Part shown: in pieces, positions 1,044 to 62,907 of the stretch | Numbering within the stretch: the stretch's first letter is position 1 | How the letters are laid out: each line of letters opens with the position of its first letter | NCBI GenBank assembly: GCA_902800395.1 | Contig: CADCEC010000011.1 | Coordinates: forward strand, 1-64,000 | Origin: an uncultured Bacteroidota bacterium | GTDB lineage: Bacteria > Bacteroidota > Bacteroidia > Bacteroidales > P3 | Direction: 5' to 3' | DNA length: 64,000 bases | Made by a program: the position numbers and the translations under genes | Notes under the pieces: model-generated | What the model was told of the DNA's origin: nothing | Database searches by the model: none | What the model saw: only the letters and a program-made list of their open reading frames with translations

Positions 1044-2408
1044 ATGGCTTTTTATCATGCTCTCCAGATAGAAGAACCGCGCTGCATTGGTTGCTCACGG
1101 TGCATGAAGATTTGTCCCACGGAGGCTGTCCGCATCCATGGCGGCAAAGCTGAGATTCAGGAGCACCGCTGCATCGACTGCGGCAAGTGCTACGAGGTGT
1201 GCCCCGCGCAGGCTATCAGCATCAAGGACGACGACTTCGGGATGTTCCGCAAGTACCCCCATTCGGTGGCCCTGCTGCCGTCGGTATTCCTGGGACAGTT
1301 CCCCGACGACATCAGCGTGTCGAAGGTCTATGCTTCCCTCTATGAACTGGGCTTCGCCCATGTGATGGAGGTGGAGAGCGCCGCGATGATCTACAAGGAG
1401 GCTAAGGAGAAGTATGCCCGTGAGCACCCCGAGATACGGCCCCTCATCTCGTCGTTCTGCCCCGCCATCGTGCGACTGATACAAATCAAATATCCGTCGC
1501 TGGCGGAGAATGTGATGCCCATCAAGGTGCCGCTGGACCTCAGCGCCATGTACGCCATCGAGGAGCTGCAGCGCCGCGGTATTCCGCGCGAGGAGATAGG
1601 CCTCTTCTATATCACCCCCTGCGCCGCCAAGGTGGCGGCCGTGAAGGCTCCTGTGGGTGAGGAGAAGAGCATCATCGACGGTGTCATCAATATGAATATG
1701 CTCTACAATGGTGTCTACAAGCACATCAAGGGCGTGGGCAAGAGCCACCAGTTCCCGCCGGTGACGCGCCACCGCCTGAGTGCCGACGCCATACTTTCGA
1801 CCCTCACCAACGGTGAGCGGCGCCTCTGCTCCGCCAAGCGCAGCTATGCCATCGACGGTATCCAGAACGTGATGGACTTCCTCGACAAGCTGGAGAACGA
1901 CGAGGTGGAGGGCGTGGAGTTCCTCGAGCTCCGTGCCTGCGACCAGGGCTGTGCCGGCGCGCTGCTGAGTTGCGACAACCGCTTCCTCTGCGGCGAGAGG
2001 ATGTACGCCCGTGCCCGTCGCGCCGCCGAGCGCGAGCGCAACGGCGAGATGCCGCGCGACCGCGAGATGGACCAATACAAGGACTACCTGATTGAGAATG
2101 CGGAGCTTGACGAGGTGCAGCCGCGCTCGATGATGGTGCTCGACGAGAATATCTCGAAGGCGCTGGAGAAGATGGAACGCATCGAACGGCTGAAGACCCA
2201 CCTGCCGCAGATTGACTGCGGCGTGTGCGGTGCTCCCACCTGCGAGGCGTTCGCCACCGACGTGGTGTGCGACAAGGCCGACCTGCACCAGTGCGTCTTC
2301 TACCGCCTCCACCTCGAGGCGCAAGGCAAGATGACGCTGAACGAAGGACGCTCCAACATGTACTCCGTCTGGGGCGATGACCGCATCAGCGGAAATCTGG
2401 AGGAATAG
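1044..2408 (+). CDS. [FeFe]-hydrogenase-like iron-sulfur protein, probable H2/redox sensor
   Basis: 454 aa. Residues 14-24 and 43-53 are two CxxCxxCxxxC ferredoxin motifs, each followed by Pro. A hydrogenase large-subunit-like domain follows: SSFCPA (Cys139), TPCAAK (near 196), and RACDQGC (near 300). Compared with catalytic [FeFe] hydrogenases, all four H-cluster cysteine ligands appear present. The proton-relay cysteine of the TSCCP motif is replaced by Phe138, and the GGGQP tail of the third motif is missing. A C-terminal CGVCGAPTC motif with a later Cys is a FeS (PF04060-type) domain. These changes fit regulatory rather than turnover hydrogenases (the HydS/HsfB-like groups). Its position after an anti-sigma-type ATPase supports a sensing role. 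The stop codon falls inside a 7-nt tandem repeat. Confidence 0.85.
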   Translation: MAFYHALQIEEPRCIGCSRCMKICPTEAVRIHGGKAEIQEHRCIDCGKCYEVCPAQAISIKDDDFGMFRKYPHSVALLPSVFLGQFPDDISVSKVYASLYELGFAHVMEVESAAMIYKEAKEKYAREHPEIRPLISSFCPAIVRLIQIKYPSLAENVMPIKVPLDLSAMYAIEELQRRGIPREEIGLFYITPCAAKVAAVKAPVGEEKSIIDGVINMNMLYNGVYKHIKGVGKSHQFPPVTRHRLSADAILSTLTNGERRLCSAKRSYAIDGIQNVMDFLDKLENDEVEGVEFLELRACDQGCAGALLSCDNRFLCGERMYARARRAAERERNGEMPRDREMDQYKDYLIENAELDEVQPRSMMVLDENISKALEKMERIERLKTHLPQIDCGVCGAPTCEAFATDVVCDKADLHQCVFYRLHLEAQGKMTLNEGRSNMYSVWGDDRISGNLEE

Positions 2409-2452
2409 TTAATAGTTAATAGTTAAAAGATAATAGTTAAAAGTTAAGAGTT
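2404..2452. repeat. 7-nt tandem repeat AATAGTT spanning a stop codon
   Basis: Three exact AATAGTT units (2404-2424) are followed by degenerate copies to about 2452. They fill the gap between two convergent genes, and the first unit supplies the TAG stop of the hydrogenase-like gene. No intrinsic terminator is seen here. Confidence 0.85.
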
Positions 2453-4341
2453 GGGGCGGCTTCGATGAAGTCGCCTTTCTCTTTGATGTGCTCAATGAGG
2501 GCGCGGTAGAAGCGGTGGTGGGCGAGCGTCTGGGCGTTGCCCACGATGATGAGCTTCATGCGGGCACGCGTCATAGCGACATTCATGCGGCGCAGGTCGC
2601 GCAGGAAGCCGATGTGGCCGTCGGCATTGTCGCGCACCAGCGAGATGACAATGACGTCGCGCTCCTGTCCCTGGAATCCGTCGACAGTACCCACGGTGAT
2701 GTGGCGTTTGAGTTTGCGGAAATAATGCTGCATCTTGAGCAGGCGGCGGATGAGGCGCGCCTGACCGCGGTAGGGGGTGATGATGCCGAAGTCGATGCGT
2801 TCGCTCTCGATTTTCTGCGGCGAAATCATCTCGATATAATCGCGCAGGGCGTGGATGACGAGGCGGGCTTCCTGGGCGTTGGTGATGGAACCTGAATTAT
2901 TCCTTTTTTCGGAGTTCTCAGAGTGTTCGGAGCTTTCAGAGTATTCTGAGGTGTCTATCCAGGTGAGTGGTGTGTCGAGGGGGCTCACCTGGCGGTGGGC
3001 GGCCTCGGGTGCCGCCTGCAGGCGGCTGTGGTAGAACCAGCGCGAGGAGAAGGACATGATGTCCTCGTTCATGCGGTACTGTGTGGTGAGCAGCGTGACG
3101 CAGCGGGGATGCAACTCTACGAGTTTCTGCATCAATGTGTCGGCGAGACCTCCCTTGACAGCCGCAAGGCTCTTCACCGTGGGTGGCAGCTGCTGGTGGT
3201 CGCCGCTCATGATGACGCGGTCGGCTTTGAGGATGGCGGCCCAGCAGGCGGGCTCGAGGGCCTGTGCGGCCTCGTCGATGAAGAGGGTGCTGAAACGGCG
3301 CCGCTCCATCAGACGGTAGGCGCTGCCAATCAGCGTGCAGCTTACCACACGCGCCTGGTCGAAGAGATCTGCGTTTATCTTGATTTCCAGCTCGGTGGCG
3401 CGCTGCTGTAGCTTCTGTCTCCTGATCTCCTTATCTCCTTTACTCCTTAACTCCTTACGAATGTTCCAAAGTTCATGGTAGTCGGGATGTGCGGAGTAGC
3501 GGCGCTCGTAGCTGCAGTCGAGCATCTCGTCGCTCATCCTCAGGGGGTTGCCGATGCGCAGGACATTGACGCTGCGGCGCATGAGTTGTTCGCTAATCCA
3601 GTCGACGGCGGCGTTGCTGGGGGCGCAGACGAGCACCTGTGTCTCGCGTTCGAGGGTCTCGATGATGGCCTCCACCAGCGTGGTGGTTTTGCCCGTCCCC
3701 GGAGGTCCGTGGACGACGCTCACCTCCTGCGCCTCCACCACCTTCTGGATGGCGGCATTCTGGCTGCTGTTGAGCCAGGGGAAGGAGAGCGGCGGCAGTT
3801 GGCGGAAGGCGGGTTGCGCATTGCCTACCAGCACGTTGCGGAGGCGGACGAAGCGCTCGTCCTCTTTCCTTTCGGCTTCCGAGAGCGACTCCTGCATCAC
3901 ACGGTAGCTGGTGTTGTCGATGCCCAGTTGCACCCCCAGCAGGTGGCGCTCGCTGAGGTCTTTGAGACTCTGCAGGGCAGACTTCGAGGGGAGGCTGACG
4001 CTCATCACGCCGTCGCCCACGAGCTCGACATAGCATTGGTACGGCAGTTCCTTTGCACCGCCGTCGGTGAGGTAGAACAGTGTGGCGGGCTTACCGGGCT
4101 CGAAGTCCAGCTCTACCTCGTCCTCGCTGACGTCGTAGCGCAGCTCGAGGGTGAGCTGTCCGAGGGGATTGTAGGCGTCGTTCCCGAGGCGCACGGGGTA
4201 GCGGCAGGCGGGCTCCTGGATGCTGCCCGTCAGCGAGGCCCCTTTGGCTTCGAGGCTTCGCTGGTAGGCCTGCTGCTCCTCGCGGAGCTCGAGGGCCACC
4301 AGTTCACGCAAATGACTGAAATATGTGCCGATGTTCACCAC
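2437..4341 (-). CDS. UPF1/IGHMBP2-like superfamily 1 DNA/RNA helicase
   Basis: A superfamily 1B helicase of about 634 aa. It has an N-terminal beta-rich region, Walker A GPPGTGKTTT (about 220 in the longest frame), a Q/III region DEAAQALEP (about 363), GDHQQLPP (about 390), QYRMNEDIM, TVDGFQGQERDVIVISLVR and a final NVAMTRARMKLIIVGN. It should be an ATP-dependent 5'-3' translocase on nucleic acid. The longest frame begins with TTG at 4365, which lies inside a -7-like box (minus strand, 4363-4370), so GTG at 4341 is preferred. Two tandem repeats are translated in linkers: one gives the Ser/Glu-rich run near 2905-2950, the other the Lys/Arg-rich run near 3419-3458 inside the inserted helicase subdomain. 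Confidence 0.9.
   Translation of the reverse strand: MVNIGTYFSHLRELVALELREEQQAYQRSLEAKGASLTGSIQEPACRYPVRLGNDAYNPLGQLTLELRYDVSEDEVELDFEPGKPATLFYLTDGGAKELPYQCYVELVGDGVMSVSLPSKSALQSLKDLSERHLLGVQLGIDNTSYRVMQESLSEAERKEDERFVRLRNVLVGNAQPAFRQLPPLSFPWLNSSQNAAIQKVVEAQEVSVVHGPPGTGKTTTLVEAIIETLERETQVLVCAPSNAAVDWISEQLMRRSVNVLRIGNPLRMSDEMLDCSYERRYSAHPDYHELWNIRKELRSKGDKEIRRQKLQQRATELEIKINADLFDQARVVSCTLIGSAYRLMERRRFSTLFIDEAAQALEPACWAAILKADRVIMSGDHQQLPPTVKSLAAVKGGLADTLMQKLVELHPRCVTLLTTQYRMNEDIMSFSSRWFYHSRLQAAPEAAHRQVSPLDTPLTWIDTSEYSESSEHSENSEKRNNSGSITNAQEARLVIHALRDYIEMISPQKIESERIDFGIITPYRGQARLIRRLLKMQHYFRKLKRHITVGTVDGFQGQERDVIVISLVRDNADGHIGFLRDLRRMNVAMTRARMKLIIVGNAQTLAHHRFYRALIEHIKEKGDFIEAAPTLNF
2905..2950. 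repeat. 9-nt in-frame tandem repeat (TCNGAANAC theme) in the helicase gene
   Basis: Five degenerate 9-nt units read on the minus strand as alternating Ser-Glu-X triplets. The same theme occurs at 5262-5312 in the neighbouring divergent gene. Confidence 0.8.
3419..3458. repeat. 8-9-nt tandem repeat (TCTCCTTA theme) in the helicase gene
   Basis: About five degenerate units of the CTCCTTA(T) theme code for a charged linker. The theme recurs at 39864-39894 (RNase R), 61917-61956 (a signal peptide) and 29556-29592 (intergenic). Confidence 0.75.
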
Positions 4342-4389
4342 GGATGTCGTCTTTTCGGGTTGCAAAAATACGAAAAAAAATATTTTTTG

Positions 4390-4419: not shown

Positions 4420-5457
4420 ATGAAGAAGTTTTTTCTCTTACTAACTATAATTTCGGTCGTTACAGTTTCTCAAGCGCAACGTCTCACGGCCCATCGCGGG
4501 GATGTGAAGGAAGCCTACAGCTTCTGGTTCTATGAGCCCCCTACCGACAGTGACACGCTCAAGCAATCAAGCAATCAGGCAATCAAGCAATCAGTCAAGC
4601 CCTTGGTGGTCTTCCTGCATGGCAAGAGCCTGAGTGGCAAGAACCTCAACCGCGTGAAGCGCTATGGTCCCATCAACGCCCTCGAGATGGGCATGAATAT
4701 CGACGCCTATGTGCTGGCGCCGCAGACCTCCAACGGCTGGAGTCCGCAGCGCGTCATCCGTCTGGTGGACTGGGCGGTGGAGCACTATGCCGTCGACACT
4801 AACCGCGTCTATCTCCTCGGCATGAGCATGGGGGGCTTCGGCACCCTCGACGTGGCGGGCACCTACCCCGACCGCTTCGCCGCCGCTATGGCCCTCTGTG
4901 GAGGCAGCACGCTGAAAGAACTCTGCGGCCTGAACCGCATGCCGCTGTGGATACTCCACGGCACCGCCGACCGCGCCGTGGGCATCGGTGCCTCGCAGCG
5001 CGTGGTGGATGCGATGGAGACCTGCGACACCGCCGAGCGCCTCATCTGGACACCCCTCCAGGGGGCCAACCACGGCCGTCTGGCGCGCATCTTCTATCTC
5101 CCCAAGACCTACGAGTGGCTCTTCTCCCACAGCCTCGCCGACCGCGACCGCACCGTGAACCACGACTACGACATCACCGTCGAGGAGCTGGCCGACAAGA
5201 ACATCTACCGTGCGGCACGCAGCGGCGGCAACAAGGTGGTGACCGAGAAGGCCGTAGGCAGTTCGGATAATACAGAATACTCGGAAAACTCCGGTGATTC
5301 GGAAAGCTCCGGCACCCGCTACCACACCGTCAAGAAAGGCGACACCCTTAGCAAGCTGGCTCGCCGCTACCACACCACCGTGAAGAAACTCTGCAAACTC
5401 AACGGCATCAAGCAGACTTCCAAACTGCAGATTGGCAAGAAAATAAGAATTAAATAA
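4420..5457 (+). CDS. Exported alpha/beta hydrolase (esterase-like) with C-terminal LysM domain
   Basis: 345 aa with an N-terminal signal peptide ending near SQAQ. The hydrolase domain carries the nucleophile elbow GMSMGG (Ser about 135), the acid in HGTADRAVG (about 183) and the base in GANHG (about 217), as in dienelactone-hydrolase or prolyl-oligopeptidase-like esterases. Residues about 300-345 form one LysM domain (YHTVKKGDTLSKLARRY), so peptidoglycan attachment is likely. Two tandem repeats are translated: an 8-nt AAGCAATC repeat (4561-4592) early in the mature protein, and a 9-nt Ser/Glu repeat (5262-5312) in the linker before LysM. The SDR gene follows after 10 bases, probably co-transcribed. 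The substrate is unknown. Confidence 0.85.
   Translation: MKKFFLLLTIISVVTVSQAQRLTAHRGDVKEAYSFWFYEPPTDSDTLKQSSNQAIKQSVKPLVVFLHGKSLSGKNLNRVKRYGPINALEMGMNIDAYVLAPQTSNGWSPQRVIRLVDWAVEHYAVDTNRVYLLGMSMGGFGTLDVAGTYPDRFAAAMALCGGSTLKELCGLNRMPLWILHGTADRAVGIGASQRVVDAMETCDTAERLIWTPLQGANHGRLARIFYLPKTYEWLFSHSLADRDRTVNHDYDITVEELADKNIYRAARSGGNKVVTEKAVGSSDNTEYSENSGDSESSGTRYHTVKKGDTLSKLARRYHTTVKKLCKLNGIKQTSKLQIGKKIRIK
4561..4592. repeat. 8-nt tandem repeat AAGCAATC inside the esterase gene
   Basis: Four units (one with a single change) are translated as KQSSNQAIKQS. The same theme sits in the FAD oxidoreductase gene at 46603-46634. The unit length is not a multiple of three, so gain or loss of one unit would shift the frame. 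Confidence 0.85.
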
Positions 5458-8911: not shown

Positions 8912-10156
8912 TTAGTGTTTAATCACTTTGGCCGTCCCCACGGCGGTACGAAGCAGGTAGAGGCCGGGTTTCAAATTGAGAATTGAGAATTGAGAATTGA
9001 AACTGGAGATTACGAGGCGACCGTAGGCGTTGTAGAGTTCGATGAGGCTGCCTTCGGGGAGACCCGTGACGGTCACTTGGTCGGTGGTGGGGTTGGGGTA
9101 GATGGCGATGTTCCCGGTCTCTGTTGAACGGAGTCCCACGTTGTCGGGCAGCGAATGAATCTCGCCAATATAGTGGATAAACGATGGCGCCAGGAAGTGC
9201 CAATATTCCGGCAGGCGGTCGCTGCTGAGGGTTTTCCGTGTAGATATCTCCATCGTGAGTTCCAGACAGTTGTAGGTGTAGTTCACATAGTCCTGCCGGC
9301 CACCGGTGATGATGTACCAGTCGCCGCCAGCGATATAGCCGCTGGAAGTTACATCGTTAAAATGGTTGCTGCCATAGGTCCGCGCGGTGTCTACAAAGCG
9401 CTGGCAGACCTCCCGCCACCAATCCGCCGCGGGGTGTGGATTCTGATTGGAAGTGAAACTGTCCCACGGGTAGTTCATCACCTCGGAACCGCCATGGAGG
9501 TTGGCACTCAGGCGGAACTGATGCGCCGCAAAGTAGTCCATCATCGCCTGGTTCTCTTGTGCCACGCTGGGTTTGGCGGGACTGAAGGGATTCGGATAGT
9601 TGCGGTTCAGGTCGACATAGTTAGCGTTGTAGCGTTGCGAGCCCTGCACCGTGTGGTTGCCGCGCCAGTAGGTGCCGTCGGGGTTGGCCAACGGGTTGAT
9701 GCTGATGCGTGTGCGGTCCATCAGCGAGGTGAGTTCGACGTTGGTGCCGTAGCTGGTGAGCAGCGTGTCTATCAGGCGCAGCATCATCACGTATCCCGTC
9801 ACCTCGTCGCCGTGGATGGTGGAGGAATAGAAAAACTCAGGACGGTAGAGGTCGGCATCGGTTGGTGGCTCTATATACATGCTCAGAATCAACCTCCCCT
9901 GCACGCTGGTGCCGATAGTGTCCACATGGCAGAGGGTCGGGTAGGTCGCCACCCAGCGGCGCATCATTTCCAGGTAGGTGTCGTAGGTGGGGTAGCGGTC
10001 CCAGTCGGCCATCTCCTCCACAGTGGTGGCCATCGTGATGGCTTTGCTGTCAAGAGTTTCAGGCTTCGGTGGGAAAGCGTCGGGACGCGGCTTCAACTGG
10101 GCGGTGGCCCCGAAGGTCGCGGACAGGAACAGGAGTATGAACAGATAACGCCTCAT
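8912..10156 (-). CDS. Secreted M14 zinc carboxypeptidase with T9SS sorting domain
   Basis: 414 aa. A signal peptide (ATFGATAQ) is followed by an M14 metallocarboxypeptidase domain. Zinc ligands are in HGDE (about 114) and ANLHGG, substrate-binding residues in NPDGTYWRGN and DLNRNYPNPF, and the catalytic Glu lies in CLELTMEIS. The last 75 residues are a type A T9SS sorting domain (AIYPNPTTDQVTVTG ... LKPGLYLLRTAVGTAKVIKH), so export by T9SS to the surface or medium is expected. A 7-nt AATTGAG repeat at 8974-9001 is translated inside the sorting domain as part of FNSQFSIL. It is flanked by UpxY (13 bases upstream) and the VWA gene (5 bases downstream). Confidence 0.93.
   Translation of the reverse strand: MRRYLFILLFLSATFGATAQLKPRPDAFPPKPETLDSKAITMATTVEEMADWDRYPTYDTYLEMMRRWVATYPTLCHVDTIGTSVQGRLILSMYIEPPTDADLYRPEFFYSSTIHGDEVTGYVMMLRLIDTLLTSYGTNVELTSLMDRTRISINPLANPDGTYWRGNHTVQGSQRYNANYVDLNRNYPNPFSPAKPSVAQENQAMMDYFAAHQFRLSANLHGGSEVMNYPWDSFTSNQNPHPAADWWREVCQRFVDTARTYGSNHFNDVTSSGYIAGGDWYIITGGRQDYVNYTYNCLELTMEISTRKTLSSDRLPEYWHFLAPSFIHYIGEIHSLPDNVGLRSTETGNIAIYPNPTTDQVTVTGLPEGSLIELYNAYGRLVISSFNSQFSILNLKPGLYLLRTAVGTAKVIKH
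8974..9001. repeat. 7-nt tandem repeat AATTGAG in a T9SS sorting domain
   Basis: Four units (the last AATTGAA) lie in the carboxypeptidase gene. A four-unit copy at 50449-50476 encodes the same FNSQFSI peptide in another T9SS protein. Confidence 0.9.
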
Positions 10157-12669: not shown

Positions 12670-12704
12670 AAAGTTTAAAGTTTAAAGTTTAAAGTTTAAA
12701 GTTT
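12670..12704. repeat. 7-nt tandem repeat AAAGTTT, five units, in the nitroreductase 5' leader
   Basis: Five exact units between the start codon and the putative -7 box. The same theme fills the gap at 19616-19643. Confidence 0.92.
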
Positions 12705-12918: not shown

Positions 12919-12922
12919 CCAA

Positions 12923-16832: not shown

Positions 16833-16874
16833 GCGCCTCGCACTTAGCAATTTCGCCCTCTGTTCGACCATTGC

Positions 16875-16917
16875 TTAACCATTGTTTAACCATTTTTGAT
16901 GGTTAAACAATGGTTAA
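16875..16917. terminator. Long perfect inverted repeat between convergent genes
   Basis: 19-bp perfect arms TTAACCATTGTTTAACCAT (16875-16893) and its complement (16899-16917) with loop TTTTG. The left arm itself repeats AACCATTG. Placement between stops of convergent genes suggests a bidirectional terminator or mRNA 3'-end stabiliser, although no long T-run follows. Confidence 0.65.
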
Positions 16918-19023: not shown

Positions 19024-19617
19024 ATGAACCTCCGTCGACTGTTCTCCCTGACACTGCTCTTAGCCTTACTGGGGCCACTTTCCGCACAAGACTTGTTCCG
19101 CCCTCACTATACGTTCGCCACCTTCTATGAGGGCGATACCATCCCGCTCTACTTCCTCAAGCAGGTGGATGTTTGGGGCTCGTATTTGTTGCTGACGCAG
19201 AAGGAGATAAATAAGAACGGCAAGCTGATACGCAATGTGAAGATTATGCTGCCCTATGCCCGTGAGGCCAAGCGGAGGCTGGATGTGCTGGAGGTGGAGA
19301 TTGCCCAGATGGCCCCCAAGGAGCGCAAGGCGGCACTGAAGAAGGCGGAGAAGGATATCGAGGCGGAATACAAGAAAGATTTGAAGAAACGTACTTATTC
19401 ACAGGGGCTTGTGCTTATCAAGCTGATTGACCGGGAGACCAGCCGGTCGGCCTACACACTAGTGAAAGACTTGCGTGGTTCGTTCCGTGCCGGACTCTAT
19501 CAGGCTTGTGCCAGACTCTTTGGGTTCAACCTCAAGGATAAGTTCGACCCTTCGAAGAACTCGAAGGACGACCTTATCGACCGCATTGTCAAGTCCGTGG
19601 ATAAGGGATATTTATAA
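19024..19617 (+). CDS. DUF4294 domain-containing exported protein
   Basis: 197 aa. A signal peptide (cleavage after PLSAQ) precedes a DUF4294 domain that covers most of the mature chain (EGDTIPLYFLKQVDVWG ... DRETSRSAYTLVKDLRGSFRAGLYQ ... LFGFNLKDKFDP). The family is widely conserved in Bacteroidota with no known function. A strongly basic helical middle section (about residues 95-125) is typical. The stop codon overlaps the first unit of a four-unit AAAGTTT repeat that fills the whole 30-base gap to the NlpC/P60 gene. Confidence 0.88.
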   Translation: MNLRRLFSLTLLLALLGPLSAQDLFRPHYTFATFYEGDTIPLYFLKQVDVWGSYLLLTQKEINKNGKLIRNVKIMLPYAREAKRRLDVLEVEIAQMAPKERKAALKKAEKDIEAEYKKDLKKRTYSQGLVLIKLIDRETSRSAYTLVKDLRGSFRAGLYQACARLFGFNLKDKFDPSKNSKDDLIDRIVKSVDKGYL

Positions 19618-19643
19618 AGTTTAAAGTTTAGAGTTTAAAGTTT
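19616..19643. repeat. 7-nt tandem repeat AAAGTTT bridging two genes
   Basis: Four units (the third AGAGTTT) run from the stop codon of the DUF4294 gene to 4 bases before the next ATG at 19648, so the intercistronic spacer is made only of repeat. Confidence 0.92.
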
Positions 19644-19647
19644 AAAG

Positions 19648-26212: not shown

Positions 26213-26230
26213 ATTAAGAATTATGAATAT

Positions 26231-40247: not shown

Positions 40248-40252
40248 CCGCC

Positions 40253-45614: not shown

Positions 45615-47272
45615 AACAGTTACAGATAGACCTCATCCCCGAGGAGTACGCCTCTCCTTCCTCTGTCCGCCGCGCGGTGGCGCAAGCCATGGGTGTTCGG
45701 GAAGACGAGCTAGAGCCCTTCCGCATCACTCGCCGCAGCATCGACTGCCGCCGCCGTCCCCTGTATCATTGCACCGTGGAAGTGGAAAGCGGAAAGTGGC
45801 ACCCCGAAGGGGAACTGAACACCTTGGAAAAGAAAAAAAATGTAGTGAAGAAAGTGGAAAACGATGCAAAACAGACCGCGGCAGCCGATCTTTCCACTTT
45901 CCACTTTCCACTTTCCACTAAACAAGTCCTCATCGTCGGCGCCGGCCCCGCCGGCCTCTTCGCCGCCCTTAGGGCGCTGCAGCTGGGCATGAAGCCCATC
46001 ATCGTCGAGCGCGGCAAGCCCGTGGAGGAGCGCAAGAAAGACATCGTCTCCCTCGTGCGCACCAAGGAGGTGAACCCCGACAGCAACTGGTGCTTCGGCG
46101 AGGGCGGTGCCGGAACCTACAGTGACGGCAAGCTCTACACCCGTTCCACCAAGCGCGGCGATGTCAGTCAGGTGCTGCGCCTCTTCGTGGAACACGGCGC
46201 CGATCCCGACATCATGGTCGACGTCCACGCCCATATCGGCACCGACCGCCTGCCGGCCATCATCGCCAGCATGCGCAAGACCATCACGGAGGCGGGTGGC
46301 GAATATCATTTCAACACCCGCGTCACCGACCTCATCGTCAAGGACGGCCGCGTCTGCGGTGTGGTTACCGCCGCCGGCGATGAAATTGAGGCCGACGCCG
46401 TCATCCTCGCCACCGGCCACTCTGCCCGCGACATCTATGAACTCTTCACTCGTCGTGGATGGCTCCTCGAAGCTAAACCCTTCGCCCTCGGCGTCCGCGT
46501 CGAGCACCCGCAGGAACTCATCAACGAAATACAATACCACGGCAAGAACTACTCTAAACTACTCCCCCCCGCCACCTACAGTCTCACCACCCAAGTATAC
46601 TCAAACAATCAAACAACCAGACAATCAAGCAATCAACACGGCGTCTTCTCCTTCTGCATGTGCCCCGGTGGCGTCATCGTCCCGGCCGCTACGGCAGGAG
46701 GACAACAGGTGGTCAACGGCATGAGCAACGCCGCCCGCAACAGTGGCTTTGCCAACAGCGGCATCGCCGTGACCGTCGGCAGCGAAGATATTTCTAGCAT
46801 ATCTAGAGAATCTAGCCCTACCAGCCTCCTGGATTTCCAGAAATCCGTCGAGCGTCGCGCCTTCGAGGCCGCCGGCAACACCATCGACGCCCCCTCGCAA
46901 CGCCTCGTGGATTTCCTCCGCCGCAAGCCCTCTTCGCGCCTCAACAAAAGCAACTATATGGGCCACTGCGTCAGCGCCCCGCTGCACGAGATACTGCCCG
47001 ACTTCGTCGTCGACTGTCTGATACAAGGTTTCAAGGATTTCGACCGCAAGATGCGCGGCTTCATCACCGAGGAGGCCTCGCTGCTGGCCGTCGAGAGCCG
47101 CACCTCGTCGCCCGTGCGCATCCCGCGCGACAAGGAAACTCTCCAGCATCCACAGCTGCAGGGACTCTACCCTTGCGGCGAAGGCGCCGGCTACGCCGGC
47201 GGCATCGTCAGCTCAGCCCTCGACGGCATCCGCTGCGTTGAGGCTATTGGCATGCTGCACTCCCGTCAATAA
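45611..47272 (+). CDS. NAD(P)/FAD-dependent oxidoreductase (COG2509-like)
   Basis: 553 aa. An N-terminal domain of about 60 residues (MKQLQIDLIPEEYASP ... ITRRSIDCRRRPLYH) precedes the FAD-binding GAGPAGLFAAL (about 111). Other motifs are NPDSNWCFGEGGAGTYSDGKLYTR, VILATGHSARD and a C-terminal LYPCGEGAGYAGGIVSSALDGIRC. This matches the uncharacterised FAD-dependent dehydrogenases of COG2509. Three repeat tracts are translated: a GTGGAAAG/CTTTCCA stretch of about 50 residues between the N-domain and the FAD domain, AAACAATC (46603-46634) and TCTAG (46793-46819). Its 3' end overlaps the convergent sulfatase gene by 29 bases. Confidence 0.9.
   Translation: MKQLQIDLIPEEYASPSSVRRAVAQAMGVREDELEPFRITRRSIDCRRRPLYHCTVEVESGKWHPEGELNTLEKKKNVVKKVENDAKQTAAADLSTFHFPLSTKQVLIVGAGPAGLFAALRALQLGMKPIIVERGKPVEERKKDIVSLVRTKEVNPDSNWCFGEGGAGTYSDGKLYTRSTKRGDVSQVLRLFVEHGADPDIMVDVHAHIGTDRLPAIIASMRKTITEAGGEYHFNTRVTDLIVKDGRVCGVVTAAGDEIEADAVILATGHSARDIYELFTRRGWLLEAKPFALGVRVEHPQELINEIQYHGKNYSKLLPPATYSLTTQVYSNNQTTRQSSNQHGVFSFCMCPGGVIVPAATAGGQQVVNGMSNAARNSGFANSGIAVTVGSEDISSISRESSPTSLLDFQKSVERRAFEAAGNTIDAPSQRLVDFLRRKPSSRLNKSNYMGHCVSAPLHEILPDFVVDCLIQGFKDFDRKMRGFITEEASLLAVESRTSSPVRIPRDKETLQHPQLQGLYPCGEGAGYAGGIVSSALDGIRCVEAIGMLHSRQ
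45890..45917. repeat. 7-nt tandem repeat CTTTCCA in the FAD oxidoreductase gene
   Basis: Four exact units are translated as STFHFPLST. The reverse orientation (GTGGAAAG) is at about 45777-45803 in the same gene, so both strands of the theme flank the low-conservation linker. Confidence 0.92.
46603..46634. repeat. 8-nt tandem repeat AAACAATC in the FAD oxidoreductase gene
   Basis: Four units, each slightly different, are translated as NNQTTRQSSNQ. Same theme as 4561-4592. Confidence 0.85.
46793..46819. repeat. 9-nt TCTAG repeat in the FAD oxidoreductase gene
   Basis: Three TCTAGnnnn units are translated as SSISRESSP. Related to the CTAG repeat in rnr. Confidence 0.75.
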
Positions 47273-56494: not shown

Positions 56495-57241
56495 TCAGCC
56501 TTCGAAGGTGAAGGAGAGCATGAAGGTGCGGGTGGTGACGTTGTTGAAGGAGCGGATGTAGATGTCGGGGTCCTCGACCTTGAGGTCGACGAGGCCGAGG
56601 TTCATCTTGAACTCGATGGCAAACTTCACGTAGCGCAGGAAGACGTCGAAGCCCACACCCAGGGAGTAGCGGAAGTCGTGGGGCTGGAGACGGATGATGC
56701 TCTGGTCGCTCTGGTTCTTGTTCTCGCGCAGCGAGGCGAAGTCGAAGCCGTAGCTGACGCCGGCGGTGAGATAGGGTCGGAAGTTGCCGTAGCGTTTGGC
56801 ACGGAACTTCAGCTCCAGGGGGAGATCGCCGTAGACGGACTCGACGCTGCGGCGCCGTTCGGTGAGGGGATGCGTGGGGAGGTAGCCTGCCTCCCAGGAA
56901 TAGGTTATCTCGCGCGTCACCAAGGTAACGCCAGGCAGCAGGCGCAGGTTGAACCAGTCGTTGAGGCGCAGGTCGCCGATGACGGCGATGTGGAAGCCTG
57001 CGGCGTAGTAGGAGGTGACACCCTGAAGGGTCTGGCGGAGGGCGGCTTCGTCGCTGTATTCGAGGTCGAACATCGACTGGGTGTAGCCCACCTGGATGCC
57101 GTAATGCAACAGGCGCGAGTCGAACTTGCCGAGATTACCCACTTGGGCGGAAGCTGAGTGGGAAGTGGAAAGTGGAAAATGGAAAGCGATGCTGACGCAT
57201 ACCAGCACTAACACTTTCCACTTTCCACTTTCCACTTTCAT
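56495..57241 (-). CDS. porT: PorT, type IX secretion outer-membrane protein
   Basis: 248 aa. The start ATG 57241 is inside a CTTTCCA/GTGGAAAG repeat (MKVESGKWKVL); the longer frame to 57505 is an antisense-like extension. A signal peptide (LSTSHSASAQ) is followed by an eight-stranded barrel-like mature part with the PorT pattern: LLHYGIQVGYTQSMFDLEY, LRLNDWFNLRLLPGVTL, LPLELKFRAKRYGNFRPYLTAGVSYGFDFAS, FRYSLGVGFDVFLRYVKFAIEFK and TFMLSFTFEG at the C-terminus. PorT is needed for T9SS assembly in Porphyromonas and Flavobacterium. The presence of four T9SS cargo genes nearby agrees. It starts 2 bases after the ansA stop. Confidence 0.9.
   Translation of the reverse strand: MKVESGKWKVLVLVCVSIAFHFPLSTSHSASAQVGNLGKFDSRLLHYGIQVGYTQSMFDLEYSDEAALRQTLQGVTSYYAAGFHIAVIGDLRLNDWFNLRLLPGVTLVTREITYSWEAGYLPTHPLTERRRSVESVYGDLPLELKFRAKRYGNFRPYLTAGVSYGFDFASLRENKNQSDQSIIRLQPHDFRYSLGVGFDVFLRYVKFAIEFKMNLGLVDLKVEDPDIYIRSFNNVTTRTFMLSFTFEG
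57214..57241. repeat. 7-nt tandem repeat CTTTCCA covering the porT start codon
   Basis: Four units (the last CTTTCAT) contain the porT ATG. A second GTGGAAAG run at about 57159-57187 encodes the later signal peptide (FHFPLSTSHS). Confidence 0.9.
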
Positions 57242-57243
57242 CT

Positions 57244-58260
57244 TTATTCGGTGATTTCTCCGCGGAGGGACTGGCTGAGGCGCAGTTTGACGTGTTCTTT
57301 GTCGTTGGGGTATTCGCCGAGGAGGCACATCATCTTGGCGATGGCGGCCTCGATTGTAATGTCGCCGGCGCCGATGACGCCGATGCGGTCCATATCGCAG
57401 CTGGCGGCATACTGGCGCATCTTGACGGCGCCGGCCTTGCACTGTGTGACGTTGAGGATGATGATGCCGCGACGGATGGCGTCGTCGAGGGCGGAGATGA
57501 ACCACTCGTCGGTGGGGGCGTTGCCGGAGCCGTAGGTCTCTATCACTACGCCTTGCAGCCCGGGGGTGTGGAGCACGGCACCCACGACATCGGGACCGAT
57601 GCCGGGGAAGAGCTTCAGGATGGCCACGCGGGTGTCGAAGCGCTTGCGCACCTGCATGGGTTCGGTGGGCATGGGCTGGAAGAGGTGCTCCTTGAAGGAG
57701 ATATTGATGCCGGCTTTGGCCAGCGAGGGGTAATTGTAGCTTTCGAAGGCGTCGAAGTTCTCAGCGTTGATTTTGGTGCTGCGGTTGCCGCGGTAGAGGT
57801 GGCTGTCGAAGAAGATGCATACCTCGGGGATGGTGACGATGCGCGTGGAGGCTATCTCCAGGGCGCAGATGATGTTCTCACGACCGTCGCTGCGCAGCAT
57901 GCCCAGCGGCAGCTGGCTGCCGGTGAGGATGATGGGCTTGGCGAGGTTCTTGAACATGAAGCTCAGGGCCGAGGCGGTATAGGCCATAGTGTCGGTGCCG
58001 TGAAGCACCACGAAGCCATCGAAGTGGTCGTACTCGCGCTCGATGATTTCAGCGATGCTCACCCAGAGGGCGGGGGTCATGCAGGAGGAGTCGATGATGC
58101 TGGGGAGCGTCACCGACTCGATGTCGTACTCGCAGTGTTTGAGCTGTGGGACAGCGTCATAGATGCGGTCGAGGGCGAAGGGGTGCAGCGAGCCGTTCTC
58201 GTCCTGCACCATGCCGATGGTGCCACCGGTATAAACGATAAGAACTTTGTTCTGTTTCAT
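57244..58260 (-). CDS. ansA: Type I asparaginase
   Basis: 338 aa. First catalytic threonine motif YTGGTIGMVQD (about 11-21) and second HGTDTMAYTASALSFM (about 84-99). QLPLGMLRSDGRENI and FETYGSGNAP-like (VIETYGSGNAPTDEW) follow as in cytosolic AnsA enzymes that hydrolyse asparagine to aspartate and ammonia. No signal peptide. Upstream gene of porT with 2 bases between stop and the next ATG. Confidence 0.95.
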   Translation of the reverse strand: MKQNKVLIVYTGGTIGMVQDENGSLHPFALDRIYDAVPQLKHCEYDIESVTLPSIIDSSCMTPALWVSIAEIIEREYDHFDGFVVLHGTDTMAYTASALSFMFKNLAKPIILTGSQLPLGMLRSDGRENIICALEIASTRIVTIPEVCIFFDSHLYRGNRSTKINAENFDAFESYNYPSLAKAGINISFKEHLFQPMPTEPMQVRKRFDTRVAILKLFPGIGPDVVGAVLHTPGLQGVVIETYGSGNAPTDEWFISALDDAIRRGIIILNVTQCKAGAVKMRQYAASCDMDRIGVIGAGDITIEAAIAKMMCLLGEYPNDKEHVKLRLSQSLRGEITE

Positions 58261-58308: not shown

Positions 58309-60828
58309 TTATTCTTCCCCATTGGGTTCGCTCTCGTCGTAGAGGGCGTGGTAGACTTCGTAGCGCTGGTGGGTGAGTTTGCCGTCGCGGATGGTGAAGA
58401 GACTGACGGTGATGCTCTCGGGGGCGCCGTGGATATGGCAGAATTCAGGACCGTCGGGGCTGTCGAAGACCATGACATCACCTGACATGTATTCGCCGCC
58501 ATCGTCGGCATTCCAGGTGGGACCATAGACGTTGTCGTAGTAACCTTCCATGGGGTAGGCGTAGACCTTGCCGTCGACGGTGAAGACCTCGAGGGCCAGA
58601 GCCACCTGTGTGGTGTCGCCGTATTCACCGATGCGGGTCTTCCACGGGCCTTTGAATTGGAGGACGCCGTAGCCGAAGCGGTCGTTGGATTCTATCAGCT
58701 GCGAGCGCTCGGCTTTCATATTGTACTGCTTCTCGAGTTGCTTGACGACTTTGGAGGGCAGGGTCTTGGGACTGTCGAGATGGTAGGTCATCGGGACGAA
58801 AGCGTGGCTGCGGAGGTAGTCGTTGGTGACGACGACCCACATGCCCCACATCTCGTCTTCCGGCAGCATGTTGCCAGGATAGGCGAAGGCGTATTTCAGA
58901 CCCGGGGAGGGGATGGAGGGACGGCTGTGGAGCTCGCCGGGGTAGATGTCGCGGCCTTTGGAATCCTTGAGGATTTCGCCGAGGTATTTGAGAATACAGA
59001 CTTTGCCGGAGGGGGTGATGAGGTTAATGTACTTCTCGGCATTCTGGCGGAAGCTTTCCTGCAGCTCCCAGCGCTGGTGCTCGGCTTCGTAGTAGTCGGC
59101 GCTCTCCTCATTCAGCACGGGCTCCTTTACGTCGCTCCAGTAGACCATATGCATGTGGTCCTTGTCGAGGATATAGAGGAACATGGGCATGGAGGCGAGG
59201 ATCTGCTGGTCGGGGCCGATGGGACGGGTGGCGAGGTTGAGGGGGTCGGACTCGGGGGAGAAGAAGTTTTTCTTGCCCGACTGGTCGGCTTGGCTCATGG
59301 TGCCGAGTTTGTCGGTGGGACAGTAGATCTCGCAGCCTTCGAGGACGAATTTGGAGTCGAAACTGAAGAGGGTGTTGTCGTATTTGTTGCTGTAGAAGCG
59401 GCAGTCGGTGAAGGTGACATCCTTGCAGCCACGGCCTTCGACGAGGTCGTACTCCTTGTTTTGGAAGAAGTCGCAGTTGGTGAAGTGCAGCCCTTGCGAC
59501 TTGCGCAGCTGCATGATGCCGTAGGTGCAGTGGTGGACGTTGCAGTTGCGGACATCGAGATTGCGGCTCTCCATGACGTCGAAGCCATAGGTGCCGCAGC
59601 CGTAGAGGTCGCAGTCGAGGACTTCAATAATGTCGCATTTCTTCGCGCCGATGACGCCGCCGGAGCAGAAACCGTATTCGGTGTGGCCGATGGTGAGGTT
59701 CTCCACACGGCAGTGATGGCAGTTGATGAAGTAGAGACAGTAGGAGTAGCGCGGGTCGACCTCGATGCTGGCGTTGCCGGCGCCGCGGATGGTGAGGTTG
59801 TCGATATTGACGAGGTCGAGCTGCTGGCCGTCGGTCTCTCCTTCGCTGATGACGAGGGGAATAGTGCCGATGAAGTCGTCACCGGACTGAACCCAGCGGC
59901 GGCTGGGGTTGTCGGTGAAAAGGCTCTCGTTCTCGAGGACACGCGAGAGGTTGAGGTGCACGTTCTTGGCGAGGACGATGGTGCGGTTGGGACCGAGGGC
60001 GTTGAGGAACTCGCGCTCGTTGGTGACGGTATAGGTCTGCACGCCGTTGATCTCTTCGGGTCCGCGGCCGTCGTCGGCCAGACCGCCGGGGAACATGTCG
60101 GGTGAGAGCATGCTGTAGCGGTAATCATCGGGTGTGGCCTCTTCGGCTTTGATGAGTTCGAGGTTGGTGCGCTCGAGGTCGCTGAGGACGACGGTGCTGT
60201 TGTCCTTGACGGGCTTGTACCATTTCTCTTTCTTGAAGTGGTCCTGCAGGTCTTTGGATTGGAAGTTCCAGCCGTGACGGGCGAGAATTTCGTTGCGCAT
60301 GAGGCGCAGCTCCTCCTTGGGGAAGCGTGCCAGCCAGGTGGTGTTGAGCAGGTGGGTGGTGATGACTTCGGAGGTGGGCATCTGCTCGAGGTTGCGCTCC
60401 ATGAGGGTGCAGCTCTGCAGGTCGGCATTGAGGAAGTATCTCAACGTCCAGGCGGCGTCGCCCTTGTTATTGTAGAAGACCAGGAAATGGGAAACACGGT
60501 CAATGAAGAGTTTCTTCACTCTGGCTCCTTCGTTGACGCGCAGGGCGATGGCGCCGTTGCGGGAGAAGACGGAGTATTCGTTCTTGTCTTCGTTCCAGAT
60601 GAGGGCAATGCTATATTCGTCGCCGTTGATATCTTTGCCGACGAGGTCTACGGCACCACTGCTGAAGGTGCTGGCCTGATAGAAGACGGCGCCGTCCCAG
60701 AACTTGTCGCCGTTCTGGATGGGCTGGGCGAACAAGGTGAAAGATGAAAGGTGAAAGGTGAGAAGGAGTAGGAGTGAGAGGGAAGTGAGAGGGAAGTGAG
60801 AGTGGAGTGAAGGGGACAAATGCTTCAT
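58309..60828 (-). CDS. Exported right-handed beta-helix protein with YARHG domain
   Basis: 839 aa. A signal peptide is built from a repeat theme (LHSHFPLTSLSLLLLLTFHLSSFTLFAQ). A beta-sandwich-like part to about 160 follows, then a YARHG module (LMRNEILARHGWNFQSKDLQDHFKKEKWYKP, about 178-208). A right-handed parallel beta-helix spans about 270-520 (VTNEREFLNALGPNRTIVLAKNVHLNLSRVL ... VENLTIGHTEYGFCSGGV ... CKDVTFTDCRFYSNKYDNTLFS). The last 300 residues are of unknown type. A pectate-lyase-like fold suggests carbohydrate binding or cleavage, but no catalytic motif can be fixed. The signal sequence holds AGGTGAA and GAAGTGAGAG tandem units. Confidence 0.85.
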   Translation of the reverse strand: MKHLSPSLHSHFPLTSLSLLLLLTFHLSSFTLFAQPIQNGDKFWDGAVFYQASTFSSGAVDLVGKDINGDEYSIALIWNEDKNEYSVFSRNGAIALRVNEGARVKKLFIDRVSHFLVFYNNKGDAAWTLRYFLNADLQSCTLMERNLEQMPTSEVITTHLLNTTWLARFPKEELRLMRNEILARHGWNFQSKDLQDHFKKEKWYKPVKDNSTVVLSDLERTNLELIKAEEATPDDYRYSMLSPDMFPGGLADDGRGPEEINGVQTYTVTNEREFLNALGPNRTIVLAKNVHLNLSRVLENESLFTDNPSRRWVQSGDDFIGTIPLVISEGETDGQQLDLVNIDNLTIRGAGNASIEVDPRYSYCLYFINCHHCRVENLTIGHTEYGFCSGGVIGAKKCDIIEVLDCDLYGCGTYGFDVMESRNLDVRNCNVHHCTYGIMQLRKSQGLHFTNCDFFQNKEYDLVEGRGCKDVTFTDCRFYSNKYDNTLFSFDSKFVLEGCEIYCPTDKLGTMSQADQSGKKNFFSPESDPLNLATRPIGPDQQILASMPMFLYILDKDHMHMVYWSDVKEPVLNEESADYYEAEHQRWELQESFRQNAEKYINLITPSGKVCILKYLGEILKDSKGRDIYPGELHSRPSIPSPGLKYAFAYPGNMLPEDEMWGMWVVVTNDYLRSHAFVPMTYHLDSPKTLPSKVVKQLEKQYNMKAERSQLIESNDRFGYGVLQFKGPWKTRIGEYGDTTQVALALEVFTVDGKVYAYPMEGYYDNVYGPTWNADDGGEYMSGDVMVFDSPDGPEFCHIHGAPESITVSLFTIRDGKLTHQRYEVYHALYDESEPNGEE
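60738..60815. repeat. Tandem repeats in the beta-helix protein signal peptide
   Basis: AGGTGAA-like 7-nt units (about 60735-60762) followed by about 10-nt GAAGTGAGAG units (about 60775-60802). They encode most of the hydrophobic core. Confidence 0.8.
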
Positions 60829-60891: not shown

Positions 60892-61983
60892 TTATTCAGC
60901 GTAGTCGGAGAGGGTCTTCCGGACTTCGATGGGGTGCCATATGGGCTCGAAGGTGACGTATTTGCCGATGGCGCTCATTGCTTTCATGTAGGTCTCTTCG
61001 TCGCATCCCTTGTCGTTGACCGTGTATCCGCTTTCGCTGTCAATCTTGTCGCCTTTCATGTTGTACTGGTCCATCCAGGTGGTGCGGCAGACAGGACGGC
61101 TGTCCTTGATGATGCAGAATTCGCCGCGTGCGCAGCCGGTGCCACATCCACCCTGTGCCGCCACGCCGTGCTCGAAGAAGTCCAGCATGGTGTGGGGATC
61201 GGAGAGGACCAGTAACACGGGTTTGCCGTCGGCGATGGAGAAGACGGCATCGTAGAAGTCGTCAAGGGTGTGTATCTGGACCTCATAGGTGCCGTCGAGG
61301 TCGACATCGATGAGCGCATACTTGTCGAACACGACTTCGTCGCCAAGTTCCGAGGCGGCAATCATGTCGTTCAGATACTTGTTGATGTCGAAGGTCTTGC
61401 CGTATTGCTTGTCAATCTTCTCGTTGTTGCAGGTGTAGATGAAGGTGAACATGTCGGCTTTCTCGCTCACATTGCCGAGGTCTTGGCCGGAGAAGGAGAT
61501 GTGGAAGTCGTCGACGAACCAGTCGCCGCGCTCGAAGACCAGGTTGAGGATGACTTTCCTGTTTTTGAAGTTGTGGATGGTCAGTTCGACATCGGCCGAT
61601 GCTTCGGTGATATTCTTGATTTCTTTGATTTTATAGCTCCATTTCTTGTCAATATCCTGTCCGACGACCCAGTGGTCGTAGTCTCGGTAGACATACCCCA
61701 TCTCGTGGCTGAACTTGCTGCACTGGGCGTCGAGCGACAGAAAATCGGCCGAGCAGAAACGGGCATCGTCCTTGTATTTGTAGAGGGTATCGATGCGCTG
61801 GGCGATGTACTCCTTGGTGTGACGGATGGAGTCCTCATGGTCGTCGAGGACCACGTCGGCCTGAGTGGAGTCGATGCTGTCGTGCTTTTGACCGTTGCCG
61901 CCGCAACCTATTAGAAGTAAGGAGATAAGGAGGTAAGGAGATAAGGAGGTAAGGAGGGAATTAAAGGATAAATGTTTTTTCAT
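60892..61983 (-). CDS. Exported lipoprotein, DUF3828-like N-terminal half
   Basis: 363 aa. Signal MKKHLSFNSLLTSLSPYLLI then SLLLIGC with lipobox LIGC. The core is encoded by an 8-nt ATAAGGAG repeat. Residues about 50-175 (YKYKDDARFCSADFLSLDAQ ... YDHWVVGQDIDKKW ... DVELTIHNFKNRKVILNLVFERGDWFVDDF) look like a DUF3828-type domain. The second half (DVDLDGTYEVQIHTLDDFYDAVF ... GGCGTGCARGEFCIIKDSRPVCRTTW) is Cys-rich and unassigned. It forms a row of exported proteins with the beta-helix protein and the next two genes. Confidence 0.75.
   Translation of the reverse strand: MKKHLSFNSLLTSLSPYLLISLLLIGCGGNGQKHDSIDSTQADVVLDDHEDSIRHTKEYIAQRIDTLYKYKDDARFCSADFLSLDAQCSKFSHEMGYVYRDYDHWVVGQDIDKKWSYKIKEIKNITEASADVELTIHNFKNRKVILNLVFERGDWFVDDFHISFSGQDLGNVSEKADMFTFIYTCNNEKIDKQYGKTFDINKYLNDMIAASELGDEVVFDKYALIDVDLDGTYEVQIHTLDDFYDAVFSIADGKPVLLVLSDPHTMLDFFEHGVAAQGGCGTGCARGEFCIIKDSRPVCRTTWMDQYNMKGDKIDSESGYTVNDKGCDEETYMKAMSAIGKYVTFEPIWHPIEVRKTLSDYAE
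61917..61956. repeat. 8-nt tandem repeat (G/A)TAAGGAG in a lipoprotein signal peptide
   Basis: Five exact-length units alternating GTAAGGAG and ATAAGGAG encode LLTSLSPYLLISLL. The unit length is not a multiple of three. Confidence 0.93.
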
Positions 61984-62023: not shown

Positions 62024-62845
62024 TCACTCTTCATTCTTTACTTTAAAGTATACTCCGTCGACCTTGTTCCTCTTGCCGCTGCAGACGGCTGCTTCGGGAT
62101 TTTCTTCGGAGATGAGCACCACGAAGTTCTTGAAGAAGTGGGCGCTGAAGGAATATCCGCAGTCGTTGGCCTCTTTGTAGTAGAAGCTGTTGTAGGTGGT
62201 GGCGATGAGGTCGGCGGGACGGTCGGGGAGGCTCTTGTAGTAGGATTCGTGCAGGTCGTTGATGACTTCGAAGCGCACCTTGTGGTCGCCGGCCAGCCGG
62301 AAGGTGGCGCGGCCGTTCTTCCAGGAGTTCGACGCGAGGTCCCAGTGGCGATAGACATATTCGCCGTCGAGGGCATCCTCTTTGGCGTAGTCCCAGAAAC
62401 TATTGGACGATGTCCCGATATACTCCATATTCTTCATCTCGAAGACCTGTCCGTTCTTGGGATTGGACCAGGAACCTTCGGTGAGGATGGGCTCGTTGTA
62501 GGTGGTGTCGTCAATTCTCATGCGCAAACAGCCGGTGACGGTGCCGTCGGCTTTGTACTCGTTGAGGAGGTATTCGTCGCCGGTCCAGGTACCGACAATC
62601 AGGAGGCGGATGGGTTTCTTATGGTTGGTGTAGACAATCTCACCCACGGCTACATAATCAGCGTTGACGGCGAACTCGATGGAGACACCTATCTTGTCGC
62701 CTAGCGTGCCCTCGAAATGGAAATCACCGAGGACGTCGGCCTTACAAATTGAAAATTGAAAAATGAAAAATATGCTGGCGCAGAGAAAGGAGTGAAAGGG
62801 AGTGAAAGGGAGTGAAAAGGAGTGAAAGGACAAATGTTTTTTCAT
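62024..62845 (-). CDS. Exported protein of unknown function
   Basis: 273 aa from ATG 62845 (MKKHLSFHSFSLPF; frame open to 62860). The signal peptide is made largely from AGTGAAAGGG and AATTGAAAA repeats (LPFTPFHSFLC ... FIFQFSI) and ends near SICKADV. The mature part is beta-rich (FHFEGTLGDKIGVSIEFAV ... GEIVYTNHKKPIRLLIVG; later HWDLASNSWKNGRATFRLAGDHKVRFEVI). No family recognised. The start of the mature region, a 'low-energy' beta protein with TNHKKP, resembles proteins predicted to report on envelope state, but this is only an impression. Confidence 0.7.
   Translation of the reverse strand: MKKHLSFHSFSLPFTPFHSFLCASIFFIFQFSICKADVLGDFHFEGTLGDKIGVSIEFAVNADYVAVGEIVYTNHKKPIRLLIVGTWTGDEYLLNEYKADGTVTGCLRMRIDDTTYNEPILTEGSWSNPKNGQVFEMKNMEYIGTSSNSFWDYAKEDALDGEYVYRHWDLASNSWKNGRATFRLAGDHKVRFEVINDLHESYYKSLPDRPADLIATTYNSFYYKEANDCGYSFSAHFFKNFVVLISEENPEAAVCSGKRNKVDGVYFKVKNEE
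62791..62830. repeat. 10-nt tandem repeat AGTGAAAGGG in a signal-peptide region
   Basis: Four units encode the LPFTPFHSF-type core of the signal peptide. A short stretch of the same theme is in the DUF6266 gene (about 49336-49352). Confidence 0.9.
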
Positions 62846-62907
62846 CGTAGTAATTTTCATTTAACCGTTATTGTCTATAACCAATAACCCATAACCAATA
62901 ACCTTTA

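Follow-up and report, generated by a model that had tools for sequence, protein, structure and literature searches.

Why should the same few short units, tandemly repeated, turn up in spacers, signal peptides and conserved enzymes at unlinked places along one stretch of bacterial DNA? The stretch, called the window here, is the first 64,000 nucleotides of contig CADCEC010000011.1 (C11:1-64000) of an uncultured rumen-type Bacteroidales bacterium of lineage P3 (GCA_902800395.1; 2,405,839 bases in 21 contigs), a genome that we denote G000. A first-pass annotation, made from the letters alone, had counted more than 20 tracts of 7–10-nucleotide (nt) units in it and had seen in them a dispersed, self-propagating habit. 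We have found that the habit of forming repeat arrays is real and genome-wide, that it is centred on a rumen genus and that it turns over between species.

Tandem Repeats Finder (TRF) gave 87 rows for the window at a score of 30 and, with overlaps removed, 44 arrays at a score of 40, of which 15 have period 7. By our own hexamer-based gene calls, 25 of the 44 lie in genes and 19 in spacers. The caller overlooked at least one window gene (56495-57241), and the arrays at 57157-57186 and 57212-57239, tallied as spacer, are actually inside its signal peptide. Compared with 20 Markov-2 simulations of the window, perfect period-7 runs number 11 against 0.15 expected at 2.5 or more copies and 8 against 0 at 3 or more. 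Periods 8 and 9 are also in excess at 2.0 copies (8 against 0.8 and 4 against 0.5, respectively) and show no perfect run of 2.5 copies in the window, so that the 8- and 9-nt arrays are imperfect. In a genome sample of 859,465 bases (the window, all of contig C1, most of C4 and part of C2) TRF found 511 arrays, 150 of them of period 7 and falling into 34 themes. In three local Markov-3 shuffles the totals were 17, 29 and 27 arrays, with not one of period 7, and theme frequencies therefore do not match a shuffled expectation. Chance or base composition as the source of the arrays is ruled out by these simulations and shuffles. The vocabulary is small: AAAGTGG, AAACTTT and AAAATTG account for 42, 13 and 12 of the 150 heptamer arrays, AAGCAATC and AAGGAGAT for 12 and 8 of the 37 8-nt arrays, and AAAGGGAGTG for 6 of the 14 10-nt arrays. 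A three-copy CTTTCCA pattern has 79 overlapping matches genome-wide and its reverse has 1.

The recurrence of themes at separate loci, as first reported, is reproduced in the TRF listing for CTTTCCA (38964, 45890, 57212), AAAGTTT (12670, 19615), GGTTATG (28256, 60860, 62877), AATGAAG (33651, 62014) and AATTGAG (8974, with the related AAATTGA at 50448), as well as for AAGCAATC-like (4559, 46601), ATAAGGAG-like (3418, 29555, 39860, 61917) and AGTGAAAGGG-like themes (60773, 62785). The CTAG theme had been placed in both the RNase R gene and a gene for a FAD-dependent enzyme; it is found, weakly, in the first, and the TRF listing has no CTAG array in the second. The arrays and elements of the window to which we refer are as follows.

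2404-2452, spacer: AATAGTT array, a theme containing a stop.
3418-3457, minus strand: AAGGAGAT array in the helicase gene 2437-4365.
4559-4598, plus strand: AAGCAATC-type array in the LysM/esterase-like gene 4420-5457.
8974-9000, minus strand: AATTGAG array near the C-terminus of the type IX secretion system (T9SS) carboxypeptidase 8912-10156.
12670-12704, spacer: AAAGTTT array, a theme containing a stop.
19615-19647, spacer: AAAGTTT array.
26190-26340, minus strand: core2 element GACAAATG..CTATTGTC; it has (GAAGTTAAA)n arms and a further small palindrome.
28256-28284, plus strand: GGTTATG array in the BspA-type leucine-rich repeat gene 26361-28466.
30290-30470, minus strand: second core2 element; locus L009 has an identical core with like flanks.
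31164-31242, between convergent genes: inverted pair of 11-nt AAACGAACAAC arrays.
33651-33681, minus strand: (AATGAAG)n array; it falls within the signal peptide of the carboxypeptidase-regulatory/TonB plug protein 31347-33719, where relatives have other themes.
38697-38740, minus strand: weak 9-nt CTAG array (69% matches, score 37), RNase R residues 482-496.
38964-38995, minus strand: (TTTCCAC)n array, residues 397-407 of RNase R (an RNB-domain protein), read ESGKWKVESGK.
39860-39894, minus strand: 8-nt (AAGGAGAC) array, RNase R residues 97-108.
45890-45919, plus strand: (CTTTCCA)n array in the FAD-dependent enzyme, read LSTFHFPLST.
46601-46636, plus strand: 8-nt AAACAATC/AAGCAATC insert in the FAD-dependent enzyme.
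57157-57245, minus strand: core1 (GATGCTGACGCA) between inverted (GTGGAAA)n arms; together they make up the signal peptide of the outer membrane beta-barrel (PorT-like) gene 56495-57241.
60734-60814, minus strand: (AAGGTGA)n and (AGTGAGAGGGA)n arrays, coding for the signal peptide of 58309-60828.
61917-61957, minus strand: (GTAAGGAG)n array, coding for the signal peptide region of 60892-61983.
62746-62829, minus strand: (AAATTGA)n, core1-like ATGCTGGCGCAG and (GAAAGGGAGT)n, then ACAAATG, in the signal peptide of 62024-62860.

The window also carries two adjacent 22-nt tandem arrays with differing units in the spacer at 28468-28613, and a cobalamin riboswitch (RF00174, 105.9 bits) at 40240-40432, upstream of the gene 40557-42476.

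The positions of the arrays in the genome sample indicate how the coding sequence bears them. By our gene calls, 242 of the 511 are intergenic, with 16% of the bases intergenic, 55 lie in the first 45 codons, 188 in mid-gene and 26 near the C-terminus; of the heptamer arrays, 78 of 150 are intergenic. Their hosts are spacers, signal peptides and conserved enzymes such as RNase R, MtaB, MurD and MurF. AAAGTGG is coding in 34 of its 42 arrays and reads VESGKWKVESGK on one strand and LSTFHFPLSTFH on the opposite strand. Three heptamer themes containing a stop, in contrast, are intergenic throughout (AAACTTT 13/13, AACTATT 7/7, AAAGGTT 6/6). For periods 7, 8, 10 and 11 together, such closed themes lie in genes in 5 of 66 cases and open themes in 110 of 176 (p ~1e-15), and 98 of 115 genic arrays have a consensus that is open on the sense strand. 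Since closed themes are nearly confined to spacers, the peptides are filtered rather than selected. Ordinary protein repeats are ruled out because the units are often not multiples of three, a theme is read on both strands and closed themes stand outside genes; in this respect the first description of the tracts as dispersed, and as something other than protein repeats, holds.

Could the arrays nevertheless be kept for a function, as ready-made signal peptides, regulatory sites or terminators? Several signal peptides are made of repeats, for example MKVESGKWKVLVLVCVSIAFHFPLSTSHSASAQ and MKKHLSFHSFSLPFTPFHSFLCASIFFIFQFS, the first 45 codons hold 24 of the 150 heptamer arrays on 9.7% of the bases, and some 11-nt pairs make hairpins in spacers. 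However, a single theme is read in either strand and at unrelated places, and relatives swap themes at a given site or show plain sequence or a gap there. We therefore think selection for function very improbable as the origin of the arrays.

The close relative sampled most deeply is G002. Of 177 coding arrays of G000 (periods 7-11, 14 and 16), 72 are in genes whose orthologue, within 797 kb of G002, is at least 60% identical, and removal of five positions with poor flanks left 67 for comparison. An array is found in G002 at 39 of these, a gap at 9 and other sequence at 19. Random positions in the same genes carry an array in 9 of 576 cases (p ~1e-35), a control that was not loop-matched; the score cut-offs were moreover unequal (40 for G000 arrays, 30 for G002 arrays), and tolerance of the sites therefore explains part of the excess. 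A stricter repeat measure that does not use TRF gives fewer, 16 of 73, because degenerate arrays fail it. At the 39 shared positions the theme is identical in 6 and different in 33, and the peptide is mostly different; all 12 AAAGTGG cases have another theme in G002. This outcome does not refute the reading of the tracts as a dispersed habit.

Individual genes show the same in detail. RNase R was aligned from 25 of 80 loci, the 80 being Bacteroidales or Bacteroidetes records, many from the rumen. At residue 97 the 8-nt array is present in the window and in L010, 22 of the 25 relatives have six plain codons, L051 has an inverted (AATTAGG)n pair and L025 a longer GGAGTGAAAG-type insert. At residue 482, (AAAACTC)n, CTAG-type or CATCAAGA-type sequence occurs in some relatives and plain sequence in others. 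In a structure model of RNase R with a mean predicted local distance difference test score (pLDDT) of 68, these two arrays fall in segments (99-111 and 480-518) below 50, and the third (397-407) lies between two helices at a pLDDT of ~72-84. Other stretches of the model (430-458 and 533-597) are also of low confidence, and the label 'loop' therefore rests on the alignments. The AAGCAATC insert of the FAD gene is found in the window and in L076, partially in L072, and is absent in 7 of 9 relatives aligned. MtaB has a AAGCAATC array at a place occupied by six plain codons in ten congeners and by a gap in four order outgroups. Between IKSPGIP and SLTDLF in MurD, a length of 36 nt is kept in G000 and 6 of 7 matched congeners with units that differ, and the plain VENGKWLDQDDRW of congeners matches the position of the GTGGAAA-type array in G000; G007 (L193) has a longer in-frame insert here, which contains a GC-rich palindrome (CTCCCCTTCCCAAGGGGAG) and has array remnants on either side. 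The last MurF site has an 8-nt array in G000, a 10-nt type in G002 and plain or other sequence in the others.

The dictionaries as a whole are specific to the species. AAAGTGG makes up 42 of 150 heptamer arrays in G000 and 0 of 206 in G002, and ACTCATC 0 and 22, respectively. The density of heptamer arrays per 100 kb is 25.9 in G002, 17.5 in G000, 4.5 in G004, 1.75 in G009 and 1.0 in pooled outgroup loci; in G009 the arrays are of 11 nt instead (37 in 400 kb, of which 8 are AACTCCCTACC). Within the family, 31 of 190 genomes contain three copies of TTTCCAC, at 1 to 79 matches each; 30 of these are among the 120 of the genus and 1 is among the 70 others. TCATCAC occurs in 9 of 190, with 91 matches in G002, and both patterns are patchily spread. 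The exact three-copy TTTCCAC pattern is also seen on fifteen stretches of viral contigs (L307-L321), some with inverted copies (L308). Loci of other Bacteroidales (L066, L061, L055, L057 and L068) favour perfect runs of 8, 9 or 11 nt, with eleven 9-nt runs within 22 kb in L066, hinting that periods as well as themes are lineage-specific.

Could slippage at tolerant positions, acting locally and independently at each site, account for all of this, the shared positions reflecting tolerance alone? The clustering of arrays at the same places in relatives fits such a view, and a heptamer excess in bacteria is already known (PMC4692102). It does not explain why one theme should fill dozens of unlinked loci and be missing from a close relative of like composition, and we consider it decidedly unlikely as a full account.

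The arrays are also arranged in pairs. Pairs of the same theme within 120 bp are more often inverted than direct (15/8 in G000, 39/14 in G002) and those farther apart are not (27/43 and 25/63), as expected of template switching, which makes close inverted arms resemble each other more than distant arms do. The two inverted arms at C1:248399-248486 enclose a native protein segment, and in G002 both bear the G002 theme, so that fold-back copying fits better than insertion of a single unit. Four window stretches were folded as single strands and compared with shuffles. The pair at 57157-57245 (−25.5 kcal/mol, z −8.65) and that at 31164-31242 (z −5.43) are far more stable than shuffled sequence, and the core2 element at 26190-26340 is no better than it (z −1.21). 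A third class, the 11-nt arrays (for example, TTTGTTGTTCG, TTTAACCATTG and TTTGTTCAGTA), forms inverted pairs with gaps of a few bases and is confined to spacers, 13 of 47 lying between convergent genes; the sites include window 31164-31242 and 16867-16894 and other G000 spacers.

Such hairpins raise the alternative that the arrays belong, as arms, to small non-autonomous mobile elements with short cores, like REPINs or miniature inverted-repeat transposable elements, moved by a Y1/RAYT-like or other transposase. Two motifs, picked after the flanks had been inspected, point this way: core1, GCTGnCGCA, adjoins 15 of 231 seven-mer-type arrays and the core2 motif ACAAATG adjoins 6 of 17 ten-mer-type arrays, in both cases on the 3′ side and never on the 5′ side. 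Core2 occurs with arms at several loci, including the two in the window, and in other species, the window pair at 57157-57245 makes a hairpin, and Y1 transposase matches are present in 17 of 21 genomes. Against this, 216 of the 231 arrays have no core1, inverted arms can enclose native protein sequence, and a loose core2 scan is mostly noise (160 matches against 94 for the reversed control), for which reason we rely only on core2 matches with arms. Y1_Tnp matches number 2 in G000 and 3 in G002, with no RAYT class assigned, and there are none in G006, G008 and G009. REPINs (PMC3116915) resemble the arrays as small hairpin-forming inverted doublets spread through a genome with RAYT transposases; they are mostly extragenic with a conserved palindrome, whereas most arrays here are coreless, and a conserved palindromic core is not the repeated unit, the two motifs standing beside the minorities given above. 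A single mobile element with a fixed core is rejected, as the cores adjoin a minority of arrays, and the mobile-element explanation in general seems to us unlikely.

A reverse transcriptase (RT) with an RNA template is a further conceivable source, the product then being inserted into the chromosome. G000 encodes one RT, in an open frame of 1003 codons that includes a reverse transcriptase domain, at C1:140700-143711 (L096). Its best matches in the PADLOC library of 2023 are RT-Protease_XI and RT-TIR_XII, names of retron types, and not a DRT10 model. The accessible part of PMC12632851 describes how DRT10 makes short tandem-repeat DNA with variable units from variable templates; that complementary DNA is produced by an RT and a non-coding RNA for phage defence, and the same text describes no chromosomal arrays. 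The RVT_1 domain is matched in 5 of 13 genus genomes and gives no match in G002, which has the highest array density, and many themes coexist within one genome. An RT origin is not supported by the RVT_1 distribution and the PADLOC matches, and we regard it as highly improbable.

The explanation that we favour, and hold about as readily as we doubt it, is that slippage, fold-back and ectopic template switching at tolerant sites together drive a species-specific turnover of themes. Short arrays, mostly of 7 nt and also of 8–11 nt, would be repeatedly created, lengthened and rewritten in the rumen genus. Locally, slippage would extend a seed and fold-back template switching would write a nearby inverted copy, giving the hairpin pairs. 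Genome-wide, an array of the current theme may serve as template elsewhere, at sites resembling a seed, through ectopic template switching or gene conversion over very short tracts, and in this way one species-specific theme would come to fill dozens of loci and displace older themes at existing sites. Selection acts mainly as a filter, genes keeping in-frame, stop-free copies at tolerant places and spacers keeping closed themes. The enrichment of arrays, their small vocabulary, the filter against stops, the surplus of inverted pairs at short range, the positions held in common under changed themes and the dictionaries peculiar to each species are direct results. We infer the copying between loci from the shared species-specific themes, and to that extent the term 'self-propagating' has indirect support; no copying event was seen in the comparison of one genome per species. 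Several other observations weigh against this explanation. The 19 of 67 positions that are neither gap nor array in G002, with the 9 gaps, mean that many arrays are simple local gains. A register test had six usable pairs only, with a best shift of 0 in four, and some sites have no hairpin (45860-45925, z 0.90).

What might have permitted such copying? Exonuclease VII and SbcCD suppress template switching, nucleases restrain hairpins, and in E. coli template switching at inverted repeats is raised when single-strand or hairpin nucleases are missing. We tried three gene families, mutS, sbcD and xseA, in 21 genomes (13 of the genus and 8 outgroups), which are few, related and partly incomplete. 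MutS is present in 21/21, and the loss of mismatch repair as a cause is thereby ruled out. The large subunit of exonuclease VII, xseA, is found in all 8 order outgroups and in only 1 of the 13 genus genomes, G005, the search giving no match in the other 12; sbcD is above the cut-off in 5 of 8 outgroups and in 3 of 13 genus genomes (G005, G006 and G011). Arrays of periods 7, 8, 10 and 11 per 100 kb amount to 3.0 in G005, 9.0 in G003, 13.5 in G004, 14.2 in G009, 28.2 in G000 and 41.5 in G002, the values for G005 and G003 coming from 100 kb each. G005, with both genes, has the lowest density of the six genomes counted. It is plausible that the loss of exonuclease VII and, in most congeners, of SbcD is the permissive cause, the relationship being one of correlation. 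This too has points against it: G003 lacks xseA and sbcD matches and yet is of moderate density, G009 lacks xseA and sbcD above the cut-off and yet has few heptamers, and the nucleases may have been lost in a single old event that has nothing to do with the bursts. As to the literature, exonuclease VII and SbcCD are not mentioned in PMC7202029, and the accessible part of PMC10622511 reports foldback inversions in yeast without the Mre11 nuclease. A bolder version, which we put forward tentatively and think somewhat less probable than its converse, is that the repeat 'words' form an evolving population that sweeps through hundreds of fixed sockets (loops, signal peptides and spacers) by ectopic template copying; let loose by the loss of exonuclease VII, and mostly of SbcD too, repeat conversion would then be among the main origins of new sequence in loops and signal peptides.

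Cyanobacterial small dispersed repeats and the palindromic elements of Rickettsia are likewise tiny and dispersed, the latter in frame inside genes, but they are known as conserved units and not as tandem arrays with species-specific themes. The inserts at one site here differ between species, unlike the one conserved in-frame unit that defines the Rickettsia elements. The heptameric G-rich repeats of Xanthomonas and Nostoc (PMC4692102), with the unit GGGNATC, are also dispersed tandem arrays over the whole genome and enriched in non-coding DNA. They are one G-rich type under-represented in coding DNA, whereas here there are 34 A-rich themes, which differ between close species, and AAAGTGG is mostly coding. 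The TAACTGA direct repeats of Beggiatoaceae, cyanobacteria and five Bacteroidetes (PMC4679880) are similarly patchy by lineage, some Bacteroidetes having long arrays of several heptamers; theirs is one motif, mostly beside start codons, and here many motifs are both genic and intergenic. Neither the GGGNATC quadruplex-type unit nor TAACTGA is among the 34 heptamer themes of G000. Inverted-repeat template switching (PMC8604942) and the coding palindromes of Nematomorpha mitochondria (PMC6649704) share homogenised inverted arms in coding DNA and, unlike the present arrays, have no tandem theme common to unlinked loci. Multi-theme arrays in conserved Bacteroidales genes are not described in the titles and abstract openings of the open papers that the literature searches listed.

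Dispersed heptamers in bacteria have so far been described mainly between genes and with one motif per genome. Here species have array positions in common although the unit has been exchanged, and unlinked loci of one species have the unit in common. The pattern resembles concerted evolution, in trans, of very short repeats, and we found no bacterial system of this kind described in the literature searched. As congeners differ in repeat density and in nuclease genes, the proposal is testable. In these bacteria parts of essential enzymes are rewritten by the repeats and signal peptides are built of them, and some caution is called for in reading such proteins, as their variable loops may be derived from repeats rather than being functional domains.

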